This document shows positions 5,349 to 63,401 of a stretch of 64,000 nucleotides of DNA, one piece after another. Below the pieces are notes generated by a model. That model had not been told where the DNA came from, ran no database searches, and worked only from the letters and a program-made list of their open reading frames with translations. Numbering within the stretch: position 1 is the first letter of the stretch; every line of letters begins with the position of its first letter. The stretch spans positions 1 through 64,000 of the forward strand of contig NZ_VTUX01000001.1 in the NCBI RefSeq assembly GCF_008370495.1, written 5' to 3'. This DNA is from Pseudohalioglobus sediminis. Its GTDB lineage: Bacteria; Pseudomonadota; Gammaproteobacteria; Pseudomonadales; Halieaceae. A program made the position numbers and the translations under genes.

Positions 5349-6059
5349 GTGTCGCGTACACTCTTCATATCTGATCTGCACCTGGATCCCGCCAGGCCCG
5401 AGATTACCTGGGCACTGGCGGCCTTTCTCAACGACCACAGCGACTGTTCGACACTCTATGTCCTCGGCGATCTGTTCGAGGCCTGGGTAGGCGACGACGA
5501 CGATTCAGCCTTCGTCGCCTCGGTGGCTGCACTGTTCGCTGACTTCTCCGCACAGGGCCCCGGGCTGATGCTGATGCAGGGCAACCGGGATTTCCTGCTG
5601 GGGGAGGACTTTTGCAATCGCATCGGCGCAACACTGCTGCCCGACCCAAGCACTATTGACCTCTATGGCACCCCCACCCTGCTGATGCACGGAGACAGTC
5701 TCTGCACCGGCGACGCAGAGTACATGCGCTTTCGCAGCAGCGCCCGCAGCCCACAGTGGCAGGCCGAACTGCTGGCCAAACCCCTCGCCGAGCGCCGGGC
5801 CCTGGCCGAGCAGTTGCGCAGCATGAGCAAAGAGGCCAACTCGAACAAGGCAGAAGACATCATGGATGTCACTCCTGCAGAGGTCGATCGGGTGATGCGG
5901 GAAGCCGGTGTCAGCCGCATGATTCACGGTCACACCCACCGTCCGGCGCGGCACCAGGTCCCCCTGGGCGAACGTATTGTGCTGGGAGACTGGGAGCGGC
6001 ATGGCTGGTATATCGACGCTGGCCCGGATCATATTGATTTGGTTAAATTCGATATTTAA
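5349..6059 (+). CDS. lpxH: UDP-2,3-diacylglucosamine diphosphatase
   Basis: The 236-residue metallophosphoesterase cleaves UDP-2,3-diacyl-GlcN to lipid X and UMP in lipid A synthesis, at the inner face of the cytoplasmic membrane. Metal-binding motifs in order are DLHLD (near residue 9), GDLFEAWVGDD, QGNRDF, HGDSLC and HGHTHRPARH. The start is GTG at 5349, the base after the ppiB TAA, so translation is probably coupled. Its presence shows that the organism makes LPS by the LpxH route. Confidence 0.95.
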   Translation: MSRTLFISDLHLDPARPEITWALAAFLNDHSDCSTLYVLGDLFEAWVGDDDDSAFVASVAALFADFSAQGPGLMLMQGNRDFLLGEDFCNRIGATLLPDPSTIDLYGTPTLLMHGDSLCTGDAEYMRFRSSARSPQWQAELLAKPLAERRALAEQLRSMSKEANSNKAEDIMDVTPAEVDRVMREAGVSRMIHGHTHRPARHQVPLGERIVLGDWERHGWYIDAGPDHIDLVKFDI

Positions 6060-58630: not shown

Positions 58631-58966
58631 GTGAAAAAAACCGTTACCAAAGCCGACATCAGGGCCGAGCTTGAACGCGAGACAGCGCGTTTTCTCAAGC
58701 GCGGCGGTCGCGTGGAAAACGTACCCACTGGCACCAGCGGCAAGGACCCTACAGATCCGCCCCTGTTTCTCAATCGGCGCCTGTTCCTGGAGCCCAAAAC
58801 CGAACGCACGCTGGTACCCGACGTGGTCGCTGCGATCGAGGCGCGTCGCCTGGAGAAACTCAAGCGACGTCCCGTACAAAAACGCAAACGCCTGCCAAAG
58901 CCACGACGCAAGGTGATCTATGACGACTTCGGGGAACCTGTGCGCCAGGTTTGGGTCGACGACTAA
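58631..58966 (+). CDS. Small basic protein of unknown function
   Basis: The 111-residue protein starts at GTG 58631 and reads MKKTVTKADIRAELERETARF followed by LKRGGRVENVPTGTSG. The C-terminus is rich in Lys and Arg (KLKRRPVQKRKRLPKPRRK) and ends acidic (VWVDD). The 'FL+RGG+V' element recalls a short motif in the Pseudomonas transcription regulator SutA, but the proteins otherwise differ, so that link is only a hint. It may bind nucleic acid. Confidence 0.5.
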   Translation: MKKTVTKADIRAELERETARFLKRGGRVENVPTGTSGKDPTDPPLFLNRRLFLEPKTERTLVPDVVAAIEARRLEKLKRRPVQKRKRLPKPRRKVIYDDFGEPVRQVWVDD

Positions 58967-59119: not shown

Positions 59120-59686
59120 TCAGGAGAAGCGGCGGCGAATACCGGTGAGCAGGCCGCCCAGTGCCAGGAAGGCACCACCGACTGCGCCAACCAGGAACAG
59201 CGGTGAAGCTGTAGCGGGCATTTCCACGACTTCTTCCTCAATCACAACGATATCAGCCTCATCCAGACCGTCTGTATCGTGTACCGCCAGTGCGAAGCGG
59301 TCCTGGGGAATGTAGACGTTCAGCTGCTGACCGCGCATCAGGTCGCTGGCACGATAGTTACGGCCACCGATTTCTGCACGCCAGCTGCTGGGCAGCTGCA
59401 CGCTGCGGCTGTCACCCATGGTGCCGTCGGTGTGCAGGGGACGGAACGTCATGCGATTACCACGCACACGTACCACCTCTACAGTTGCCTGGGCATAGAG
59501 CTCGCCGTTCCTTTCATAGACGCTGCGGCAGGATGCTGCGATATCAGGATTGGCGGCCAGTACCTCTGCTGACCAGTTCAGGTCGGCACAGGTGACGTCA
59601 GTAACTTCCGCTTTTTCCTGCGCCATCAGCGAACCCGCCGACAGTGACAGAGCCATACCTACTGCTAGTGCGATCTTCTTTTGCAT
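59120..59686 (-). CDS. Putative sortase substrate with MPATA sorting signal
   Basis: The 188-residue protein has a signal peptide with likely cleavage after A22 (SLMA|Q). Two cysteines at residues 33 and 53 could form a disulfide, and residues 90-130 form a beta-rich domain. The C-terminus is a complete cell-wall-sorting-like signal: MPATA at 156-160, a hydrophobic helix at about 162-182 and a basic tail RRRFS. This matches the tripartite LPXTG signal, with Ala in place of the final Gly. AGGAGGA precedes the ATG. It starts 12 bp after the sortase stop, so it is very likely the sortase's dedicated substrate. Its own function is unknown. Confidence 0.8.
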   Translation of the reverse strand: MQKKIALAVGMALSLSAGSLMAQEKAEVTDVTCADLNWSAEVLAANPDIAASCRSVYERNGELYAQATVEVVRVRGNRMTFRPLHTDGTMGDSRSVQLPSSWRAEIGGRNYRASDLMRGQQLNVYIPQDRFALAVHDTDGLDEADIVVIEEEVVEMPATASPLFLVGAVGGAFLALGGLLTGIRRRFS

Positions 59687-59698
59687 GTCAAATCCTCC

Positions 59699-60457
59699 TT
59701 AGTTTTGATTGACATAGGTTGTGTCGAGTGACGCAGTGACGATAAATCGCTGGGGCGCATGCCCGACAAAGTAAAACGGGTAACAGGTCACCAGCGTGAC
59801 AGTCTGCTCACGGGTGTCCTTGAGTAAATGGGTATCGGTCTTGTCCACCACGGTGGTGGCATCGATGGTAAAACGTTTTTCCCCTTCCAGGGTCTGCAAC
59901 ACTATCTGGTCGCCGACCTTCACATCCTTAAGCACCCGGAAATAGCCATCGCGGTGACCGGAAATGCCGATGTTGCCGCCCTCGTGCGGGTAGGCCATGC
60001 CGTCTATCACCCCTGCGGCCCTGTCCATCACCAGCTCCGAAGCGGTCTGGTAAACCGGCACCTTGAGCTCGACGGCGGGGACTTCCAGCACACCCAGTAC
60101 GGGCGGAAGTTTTGCGCTGAGGCTTTTCTGGTAGTCGGCGATGCGGCCGGGGGCCCACAGTGAGGTATCCGGCTCTTCATCGACACTGAAACCCGGGGTG
60201 GCGCTGGATGCCGGCGCCGGACCTTCACCTGCGGCGGTAACGGGAGCCTGCTCGGGTGACGATGCACCTTCCACCGCCGGCATCTCCACGGCGGCCGAGG
60301 CCAGCTGCATCTGCTGTTCAAATACTGCTATGGTACTGCGCCGCTCGACTTCTCCCTGCGCCAATTGCACGGCAAAGAAGCCGGTGAAGACAACACCTGC
60401 TGCATAGCACAGCAATTCACCTGCGCGGACACTTATTGAGCGAATCGACAACGACAT
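59699..60457 (-). CDS. Class D-like sortase (LPXTG-type transpeptidase)
   Basis: The 252-residue protein has an N-terminal membrane helix (about residues 14-32), an Ala/Pro-rich linker and a sortase domain (about 118-245). The catalytic triad is visible: His168 in GISGHRDGYFR, Cys225 in TLVTCYPFYF and Arg237 in APQRFIV. Sortases cleave a sorting signal between Thr and the next residue and attach the protein to an acceptor. In Gram-negative bacteria they are rare and usually next to one substrate gene. ATG 60457 was chosen; a GTG at 60496 would add 13 residues. It is cotranscribed with the substrate gene 12 bp downstream. Confidence 0.88.
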   Translation of the reverse strand: MSLSIRSISVRAGELLCYAAGVVFTGFFAVQLAQGEVERRSTIAVFEQQMQLASAAVEMPAVEGASSPEQAPVTAAGEGPAPASSATPGFSVDEEPDTSLWAPGRIADYQKSLSAKLPPVLGVLEVPAVELKVPVYQTASELVMDRAAGVIDGMAYPHEGGNIGISGHRDGYFRVLKDVKVGDQIVLQTLEGEKRFTIDATTVVDKTDTHLLKDTREQTVTLVTCYPFYFVGHAPQRFIVTASLDTTYVNQN

Positions 60458-61899: not shown

Positions 61900-63264
61900 T
61901 CAGAGCAGGTCTTCGGGGAAATTGCTGGTATTGAGGTTGCTGGAGAAAGGCCGTGTTGGTGCGCGAACATCAACCCTGGATTCTTTTACCTCCGCCTCCG
62001 GGGCGGGCGGGGTCTCGGCGCTGATGGAGGGCATCTGATAGTCTGAGTCGTCGATGCAATCCACCTCGAATGCCCGGCTGTGGGTGTTGAGCGTGGGTGC
62101 AGGCGTCGCCTCCGACGGTGTGTTCACCTCGGCACGGGGCCGTTCACTCACTACTGCCTTGCGCTCAAAAGGCTGCGTGCGCGGGGGAGCACTGGCAACT
62201 GTCTGCGCCGGCGCTACCGCCGCACTGGTGTGCAATGCGGCCTGCGGTGGTGGCGTCTGCGTAGGCGGGCGCAGACCCTGCCCGGCCAGGCTCGAGCGGG
62301 CACCGCTACTGCCGATAAACTCCAGGTTCTCCAGCGCGGCGTCCAGCCTGCGCTCAGCCGCGGGCGCGGGCGCTGCGGCGGCCGGTGTCGCAACCGACGC
62401 TGTCTTGACAAGCCGCCTGGCCTGCGCCGCCAGCGTATCGCCAACGGGAATACCCCGGGCCGCGATCCGCGGCTGCATTGACTTCTCGCTGGCGACGACC
62501 GGTTCACTGGCGGCCAGTGCGGCAAGGCTTTCGGCTTCGTTGTTGTCAGCCCCCGTACCCTCGGCCTGCTCCTCGCGCAGCGCGCGCTGCTTGATCAGGG
62601 CATGGGCACAGTCCGACCAGCGCCCGAAATGGGACGACTCCGCCGGGTCCGGCATGCGGTGTTTACGGAAGTCACGCATCGCATTCATGAAGCGCTGCTT
62701 CACCGCGCGATAGCAATAGATATGGTCTTCAGTGTGCAGCGGCAACAGGTCTGCATCGCCGCGAATAATCAGCATCTGCGGCGGCAGCTGGCCCTGCAGG
62801 CTGTGCAGCAGGTCGGCGGCAAAGCACAGGCGAAATGCGGAGTTGAGTGTGGTTTTCGCCTGGGTGTCACAGGGGATATACAGGTAAGCGCCCAGGTCAG
62901 AATAGCCGGTGGTGCGCATCAGCAGATTCACCGCGCCAGACAGTGGCCCCAGCGCGAGCTGGCCGTTGACGATGTAGTCGGTACCGCTGCGCATCGCCTC
63001 CAGGGTTTCCCTGCGACGGACCTGCTCTTCTGCGTCCCAGTCGATCAGCGCGACCTGCTTGCCCTCATCCCGCAGCGTTGCCGCCAGTTCATCCTGGCGC
63101 TGCACGTACCCGGTGGGACGCGCGGTCTGGGAGTCGGGAGCGATACCGTGGTCCGGGTTCTCCAGGCACAGTCTTTCCATCCAGCACGCGAAAGGTGATT
63201 CCCGGAACAGAACGATATCTTCGGAGGTGTAGGTGACGGCTCTGTCGACACTGTAACGATACAT
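61900..63264 (-). CDS. RecB-nuclease-like protein with a long disordered C-terminal tail
   Basis: The 454-residue protein has an N-terminal domain (about residues 10-200) that resembles the TM0106-type RecB-family nucleases: SEDIVLFRESPFACWMERL, then YLYIPCDTQAKTTLNSAFRL and FAADLLHSLQG. The core acidic residue is kept as D133, but the usual DxK becomes DTQ, with a lysine at 137, so the nuclease may be inactive. Residues 240-454 are Ala/Pro/Ser-rich and look disordered. The best start is ATG 63264; an upstream AGGAGG lies 16 bp away, which is long, so an earlier start near 63315 is possible. No function is assigned. Confidence 0.55.
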   Translation of the reverse strand: MYRYSVDRAVTYTSEDIVLFRESPFACWMERLCLENPDHGIAPDSQTARPTGYVQRQDELAATLRDEGKQVALIDWDAEEQVRRRETLEAMRSGTDYIVNGQLALGPLSGAVNLLMRTTGYSDLGAYLYIPCDTQAKTTLNSAFRLCFAADLLHSLQGQLPPQMLIIRGDADLLPLHTEDHIYCYRAVKQRFMNAMRDFRKHRMPDPAESSHFGRWSDCAHALIKQRALREEQAEGTGADNNEAESLAALAASEPVVASEKSMQPRIAARGIPVGDTLAAQARRLVKTASVATPAAAAPAPAAERRLDAALENLEFIGSSGARSSLAGQGLRPPTQTPPPQAALHTSAAVAPAQTVASAPPRTQPFERKAVVSERPRAEVNTPSEATPAPTLNTHSRAFEVDCIDDSDYQMPSISAETPPAPEAEVKESRVDVRAPTRPFSSNLNTSNFPEDLL

Positions 63265-63401
63265 AGGCTGCTGTTTGGGTCCTCCTGACGGATGCAAACA
63301 GCACTGGCGGGACATACGCTCAGGCCGTTTGCATATTTATATAGGAATGGGCGGCCGCTGGCAACGGCCGCCGTGAAAATCCCACACAACCGGACTGGAG
63401 A

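Follow-up and report, generated by a model that had tools for sequence, protein, structure and literature searches.

The first 64,000 nucleotides of a contig of Pseudohalioglobus sediminis (NZ_VTUX01000001.1 positions 1-64,000, from a genome of 4.43 Mb; hereafter the 64-kb window) carry, on the minus strand, a two-gene unit made up of a sortase gene and the gene of a small secreted protein with a sorting signal. Sortases are best known from Gram-positive bacteria, where they attach proteins to the cell wall. We propose that this unit is a dedicated sortase operon of a diderm bacterium, with one enzyme and one substrate, and that the substrate is most likely fixed to the diaminopimelate of the thin cell wall; we consider this reading probable, if by no means certain. 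The sequence comparisons reported here establish the anatomy of the unit, its operon layout, the pairing of the two genes, and the joint presence or absence of enzyme and sorting tail among relatives.

Organization of the sortase-substrate unit

The sortase gene comprises 252 codons from its ATG (59699-60457, minus strand) and was assigned by PF04203, by its best NCBIfam match (class D, below cut-off), and by its fold model. A GTG 13 codons upstream offers an alternative start, as the frame is likewise open there, and most aligned relatives start near the ATG at 60457. The original prediction had described a sortase with His168, Cys225, Arg237, and an N-terminal membrane helix, and each of these was found on the minus strand: a hydrophobic stretch at about residues 15-32 (60362-60415) within a predicted helix 5-57, and the codons of catalytic His168 (59954-59956), Cys225 (59783-59785, in TLVTCYPF), and Arg237 (59747-59749), all three residues being invariant in 36/36 aligned rows.

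A gap of 12 bp separates the sortase gene from the ATG (59686) of the substrate gene, an open reading frame of 188 codons (59120-59686, minus strand) with homologues in 23/58 genomes, its own included. The segment TAAGGAGG (59701-59694, minus strand) holds both the sortase stop codon and the Shine-Dalgarno sequence of the substrate gene, and translation of the two genes is therefore probably coupled. Beyond the substrate gene lies an intrinsic terminator with a 9-pair stem and a T tail (59101-59080, minus strand); counting both strands, the region contains three terminator-like sites where 1.7 would be expected, and this one is the richest in G-C pairs. No sigma-70 promoter was found in the region scanned. 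The short gap, the secreted 188-residue protein with MPATA, helix, and RRRFS, and the terminator had all been predicted and were all present.

Pfam confirmed TamB, TamA/Omp85, and OmpA domains in neighboring genes, which bears out the tamAB and OmpA part of an earlier argument for a normal outer membrane; the gene at 5349-6059, called lpxH alongside, matched only general calcineurin-like phosphoesterase families. A 111-residue protein encoded at 58631-58966 has a SutA RNA-polymerase-binding domain (Pfam), and in the family a gene for this domain often adjoins the substrate gene, with or without a sortase there.

Substrate and sorting signal

The substrate begins with a signal peptide (residues 1-22; 59621-59686, minus strand) that was recognized from sequence and is likely cleaved after Ala22, a residue nearly invariant in the substrate alignment. 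The alignment and a structure model then indicate a small beta-rich, OB-like domain (59282-59596, minus strand; pLDDT about 90) containing Cys33 and Cys53, whose invariance in 42/42 substrate rows suggests a disulfide. Foldseek returned 0 matches to the model at E 0.001, and a second structure comparison gave OB-like matches only (EF-P/IF5A; Z ≤ 4.8), which are too weak for assignment to a family or function. Searching solved structures with a profile produced one weak match, to a cell-surface glycoprotein (E 0.0046). Across 33 substrates, Pfam matched Gram_pos_anchor in 9/33, KOW6_SPT5 in 2/33 (best 0.00016), and eight other families in one member each, including HdeA (0.011); it assigned no family to the window protein, and we adopted none of these. 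Several homologues have long Pro/Ala/Glu-rich spacers ahead of the tail.

The C-terminal end of the 188-residue protein reads MPATASPLFLVGAVGGAFLALGGLLTGIRRRFS in the translated open reading frame and, together with the signal peptide, gives the protein the tripartite layout of a sorting signal: the MPATA motif (residues 156-160; 59207-59221), a hydrophobic helix (59141-59203; predicted helix 163-187), and the basic tail RRRFS (59123-59137), the last recognized from sequence and a profile match, all on the minus strand. In an alignment of 17 tails the motif, MPATAS in the window, reads [ML]PxTAS in 17/17, with P, T, A, and S invariant, and the predicted cut falls between Thr159 and Ala160. Curated cut-offs rule out a plain LPXTG-type tail, as both TIGR01167 (11.5/15.9) and NF058670 (LPxTATN; 13.9/32) were missed.

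Ala in place of Gly at the cleavage site had been taken as a sign of a distinct specificity. We do not follow this reading, because LPNTA, cut before Ala, is a documented motif of the Bacillus anthracis class D enzyme (PMC3297441, PMC4498605), which makes Ala ordinary at this site; the latter source names LPNTAS and LPQTGS as class D motifs (PMC4498605). Two class GN-type targets that we examined also read PxTAT.

Relationship of the sortase to known classes

The sortase scored 89.5 bits against PF04203 (Sortase; gathering cut-off 26.6), and its structure model (pLDDT 85.9) gave 137 Foldseek matches at E ≤ 0.001, with sortases making up all of the 50 matches listed. Its best NCBIfam class models were two class D models, both of whose cut-offs it missed (NF033746, 112.7/165 bits; NF058671, 122.4/140 bits). 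Scores for class GN (TIGR03784, 79.6 bits; cut-off 158.25) and class C (73.9 bits; cut-off 160) were also too low, as was that for class E, and class GN membership is ruled out by the TIGR03784 cut-off. The sortase of one relative (L060) passed NF058671 (145.2 bits) and fell under NF033746 (130.8/165). In a wider alignment, 36/36 members matched both class D models at E 0.001; the same 36 all matched the class C, E, and GN models too, with best E values weaker than for class D. The solved sequence closest to the sortase profile was 2ln7, a B. anthracis class D enzyme (109 bits).

A tree of 60 sortase rows, built without chromosomal class D enzymes such as SrtC and with bootstrap values not fully settled, placed 39 diderm sequences in one clade (99/98). 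Another clade (100/99) held 15 class GN-like rows, two of them identical, which were so labeled from weak profile scores, TIGR03784 having been checked for L062 alone; a third held four plasmid-borne Gram-positive class D rows (100/94). These Gram-positive rows joined the class GN-like rows, weakly (87/46), and not the diderm clade. Because the class D cut-offs were missed, the Gram-positive rows are few, and the bootstrap is unsettled, we call the sortase class-D-like rather than class D.

A search of the genome found one further PF04203 protein outside the window locus, in a system on contig 17 (L062:6125-11891). This second sortase passed the class GN cut-off (TIGR03784, 176.8 vs 158.25), and beside it lie a 720-residue marine sortase target (TIGR03788, 733.9 vs 551.65), a dedicated response regulator (TIGR03787, 369.7 vs 335.7), and a histidine kinase that falls under its cut-off (TIGR03785, 534.7 vs 612.2). 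Since the contig 17 sortase belongs to class GN and has partners of its own, the window pair is, by its sequences, a separate and additional system. The tail of the contig 17 target reads FARTAT in place of PxTA.

Co-occurrence of enzyme and sorting tail

We searched for further tails with a profile of 17 tails that included the window's own. In the 4.43-Mb genome it matched a single place, the substrate (E 2.6 × 10−21), and nothing else passed E 0.1; the match to the window's tail follows by construction, as that tail is in the profile, whereas the absence of other places does not. The original prediction was of a sortase with its own substrate in a bacterium whose neighboring genes indicate an outer membrane, and it named a single tail genome-wide as the outcome that would support a dedicated pair; this is what the search returned.

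Among 58 genomes, a set that includes this one and the sequences that built the profile, 18 have enzyme and tail, 39 have neither (four of these with a weak sortase match only), one has the sortase with only a variant tail unlinked to it, and none has the tail only. The tail profile found 20 places at E ≤ 1 × 10−10, 19 of them directly beside a class-D-like sortase; the 20th is a fused protein on contig 1 of a genome (G013) that has the pair elsewhere. Matches at E 0.002-0.1 (20/40 rows) were taken as noise, and of these we inspected two: the match in G037 is a class GN-type target, and G039, from another family, has a sortase with no adjacent substrate and, about 23 kb from it on one contig, the gene of a secreted LPDSAS protein with helix and basic tail.

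Across 390 genomes of the order, the sortase profile found 17 places above 200 bits in 16 genomes, followed by a gap to 93 bits, and the tail profile (E 1 × 10−5) found 16 places in 15 genomes, all of them among the 16 with a strong sortase, the sixteenth being G039; at most 19 tail and 7 sortase candidates were scored per genome, so that some places may have been missed. Five of these 16 genomes (G340, G276, G067, G103, and G092) supplied no sequence to either profile, G340 sharing its genus with one that did, and the two genes lie side by side in each. A statement in the original prediction that Gram-negative sortases are few proved too strong, as 65/390 genomes of the order match the sortase profile at E 1 × 10−15, most of them weakly and probably through class GN enzymes.

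Sortase homologues lacking this substrate gene had been named as evidence that would count against the pair. Within the family we found none, as 18/18 of its strong-sortase genomes among the 58 carry the tail; outside the family are G039, with its unlinked LPDSAS protein, and 12/80 best named loci, at which no adjacent substrate was recognized. Sequence comparison thus gives strong support to the view that relatives tend to have or lack enzyme and tail together, and that the pair is real.

Several loci depart from the simple layout. One (L157:4677-5874) has two tandem substrate copies behind one sortase, both with MPTTAS. In an acidobacterial locus (L213:2385-3600), LPETAG and MPKTAS proteins of very different make-up lie upstream of one sortase, and the one-to-one rule hence does not hold everywhere. 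A three-gene run in G019 (L060:3435-5416) consists of a sortase, an LPTTAS substrate, and a third secreted protein; in G013 (L069:3945-5069) the substrate and the third protein are fused in a 374-residue open reading frame, with the sorting signal in mid-protein and a second hydrophobic segment after it. This fusion suggests that the substrate and the third protein work together. A relative of the third protein is also next door in L196.

Orthologues without tail or sortase

Six genomes (G014, G017, G020, G023, G033, and G035) have an orthologue of the substrate domain with no sorting tail and no adjacent sortase. Five of the six share the genomic position of the window's substrate gene, next to the SutA-domain gene; on the opposite side, at a greater distance, four of those five have the epoxide hydrolase and the fifth (L065) has the gene at 61900-63315 of the window. 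The sixth locus (L066) has no neighbor in common within the 9 kb fetched. We performed tblastn with 36 sortases against 7-9 kb around each tail-less orthologue and found nothing in five of the six stretches; the other gave one match (28% identity, E 0.067) that is not a credible trace of a sortase. At the genome level, G017, G020, G023, G033, and G035 gave no match to the window sortase at E 1 × 10−8, G020 has a 59-bit sortase-profile match in the class GN-like range, and G014 keeps another pair elsewhere.

A 44-row tree built from the domain alone places the tail-less rows among tail-bearing rows, and the fewest changes of tail state number three (bootstrap range 2-4), a rough figure of inferred direction, as L065 and L066 sit on long branches and support is weak at many forks; the well-supported branches alone force one change. 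A few independent joint losses of enzyme and tail are likely on this tree, if not forced by it. That orthologues exist with neither tail nor sortase suggests that the domain can also work free in the periplasm, and anchoring would then probably set where the substrate works rather than make it an adhesin.

Proposed mechanism and acceptor

We propose that the signal peptide directs export of the substrate, whose C-terminal helix and RRR tail then keep it in the inner membrane, which would place MPATA just outside the membrane. The neighboring inner-membrane sortase would attack through Cys225 and cut between Thr159 and Ala160, leaving the helix behind, and the acyl group would pass to a periplasmic amine; we infer the cut and the acyl transfer from the sortase family. 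By analogy with B. anthracis SrtC, that amine would most likely belong to the side chain of diaminopimelate, either in lipid II or in peptidoglycan, and the outcome would be attachment of a small two-cysteine protein to the thin cell wall.

The diaminopimelate of the B. anthracis wall is also present in the walls of Gram-negative bacteria. In B. anthracis the class D enzyme SrtC cleaves LPNTA at the Thr-Ala bond, with m-Dpm of the wall as its acceptor (PMC3297441), and these two points together make the thin wall the most likely acceptor and final place of the window's substrate. The step from SrtC to this enzyme is a long one, because the class D cut-offs were missed and the Gram-positive class D rows of the tree group, weakly, with class GN-like rows.

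The sortase might instead be a dedicated endoprotease or release factor, with water or a small amine resolving the acyl-enzyme and the substrate ending up free in the periplasm or exported. Sortases are transpeptidases as a family, which argues against this, and loss of the tail alone, the state of the sortase-less orthologues, would suffice for release, so that retaining enzyme and tail would need another reason. We therefore regard release as unlikely, while noting that those orthologues are plain secreted, anchorless proteins, with which a soluble end state is compatible, and that a Gram-negative protease processes a tripartite tail in the GlyGly-CTERM/rhombosortase system (PMC3237569, PMC6219818).

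Slightly less likely again, in our judgment, is transfer to an amino lipid, a lipoprotein, or an outer-membrane component in place of peptidoglycan, which would give a membrane-anchored or surface protein. The host does have outer-membrane assembly genes (TamA/TamB and an OmpA-domain protein), and our literature search found no acceptor for any enzyme of the diderm class-D-like clade. Against this, the nearest characterized relative uses peptidoglycan diaminopimelate (PMC3297441), and the pair is not consistently accompanied by any lipid or outer-membrane gene. Among sortase loci L043-L061, five (L055, L057, L058, L060, and L061) share no neighbor with the window; the other 14/19 share at least one, which argues against a recent mobile-element insertion.

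Polymerization into a fiber, as by class C pilin sortases, is very improbable. In its favor, class C enzymes are many among the top Foldseek matches of the model, and one lysine, Lys25, lies just after the predicted signal-peptide cut. Against it, pilin polymerization requires a lysine nucleophile, and the 126-residue stretch that starts just before Cys33 and ends at the motif contains no lysine, Lys25 lying outside it; no alignment column has lysine in more than 21/38 tail-bearing rows, none is conserved, and the class C score (73.9 bits) is far from the cut-off of 160.

Anchoring to the wall by a dedicated sortase is thus the reading that we carry forward. A wider version of it would hold that a separate diderm sortase lineage is shared by two phyla, Pseudomonadota and Acidobacteriota, or by three if Myxococcota, represented by one metagenome bin, is counted, that it attaches a small protein with an OB-like fold and paired cysteines to diaminopimelate, and that it has been lost at least twice with the tail, the domain persisting free in the periplasm; this we put forward tentatively, as a possibility about which we have more doubt than belief.

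Comparison with known systems

The pair is closest to class D systems of Gram-positive bacteria, represented by B. anthracis SrtC (2ln7) with the LPNTA proteins BasH and BasI and by Clostridium perfringens SrtD (4d70) with LPQTGS. It shares with them an LPxT[AG]S-type motif, the best-scoring class profile and nearest solved sequence, and the presence of enzyme and substrate in one operon, as with BasI-SrtC (PMC3208642) and in C. perfringens (PMC4498605). It differs in that the enzyme lies under both class D cut-offs, in a separate tree clade and a diderm host, and in that its substrate domain does not resemble the two small Gram-positive substrates compared. On Priestia plasmids (L263:1696-2953 and L266:1700-2884), a Gram-positive class D sortase is accompanied by one small tail-bearing protein (LPETAS and LPKTAT, respectively); these pairs show the same two-gene layout in monoderms with a different type of substrate domain.

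Class GN systems (TIGR03784, TIGR03788, TIGR03785, TIGR03787) are likewise Gram-negative and combine one sortase with one adjacent target (PMC3237569), but their enzymes fall in another tree clade, and the 720-residue target and two-component system found there have no counterpart at the window locus. Dedicated Gram-negative pairs, from class GN (PMC3237569), and operon-encoded LPxTA/LPxTG pairs with class D sortases in Gram-positive bacteria (PMC3208642, PMC4498605) are thus already known. We found no description of the separate diderm lineage, its substrate, or the joint absence of enzyme and tail, and no paper joining sortase with Halieaceae, in a literature search that left out most subscription journals.

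GlyGly-CTERM/rhombosortase and PEP-CTERM/exosortase are likewise Gram-negative systems in which a processing enzyme is matched to a motif, helix, and basic tail at the C terminus of a protein, and rhombosortase is known to form "dedicated" one-to-one pairs (PMC3237569, PMC1569441). Their enzymes, a rhomboid protease and the eight-helix EpsH, are unrelated to the PF04203 sortase found here. In the case of Braun's lipoprotein, L,D-transpeptidases fix a protein covalently to diaminopimelate in the thin wall, where the window substrate would also end, but the enzyme is a different one, the C-terminal Lys is the nucleophile, and it is the outer membrane that is tethered.

With one enzyme and one substrate in one operon, the unit is a near-smallest test case for the role of a Gram-negative sortase; the natural orthologues without enzyme and tail are ready-made controls, and named strains of related marine genera exist. 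If diaminopimelate is the acceptor, wall anchoring by a sortase would extend to ordinary diderms through a class-D-like lineage distinct from class GN, and this lineage would be the sortase-made counterpart to the chemistry of Braun's lipoprotein.

Distribution of the lineage

The lineage is rare in wider samples: outside its own genome, matches above 200 bits occurred in 1/369 genomes of the class (G760, where an LPATAS protein is encoded next to the sortase) and 1/398 genomes of the phylum (G092). A wider search gave at least 547 confirmed relatives, among which we characterized the best 80 named loci; these comprise 50 from Pseudomonadota, 28 from Acidobacteriota, one from Myxococcota, and one unplaced, many of them metagenome bins. 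The nearest named relatives among them are Pseudohalioglobus, Seongchinamella, Halioglobus, and Parahaliea (Halieaceae).

An adjacent secreted protein with a sorting tail was found at 68 of these best 80 loci (Pseudomonadota 45/50, Acidobacteriota 21/28, Myxococcota 1/1, unplaced 1/1). A scripted rule of motif, helix, and basic tail identified 65 of them; the rule is loose, matching five open reading frames in the 64-kb window of which only the substrate is real, and we looked through the printed matches and found that spurious ones (e.g., L150, L152, L179) each stand beside a convincing one. The remaining 12/80 have no recognized adjacent substrate, the next gene in L197 being cut by the contig end. 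At the best 80 loci the motif varies between MPTTAS and LPKTGS, its final residue being Ser, Gly, or Thr. The three loci added to the scripted 65 are all from Acidobacteriota and have variant tails beside the same kind of sortase, namely MPDSGS (L192:4505-5158), QPDSGT (L205:4499-5122), and LPEAGT (L214:4586-5281); judged by their tails, they are possibly a sub-group with a shifted recognition motif.
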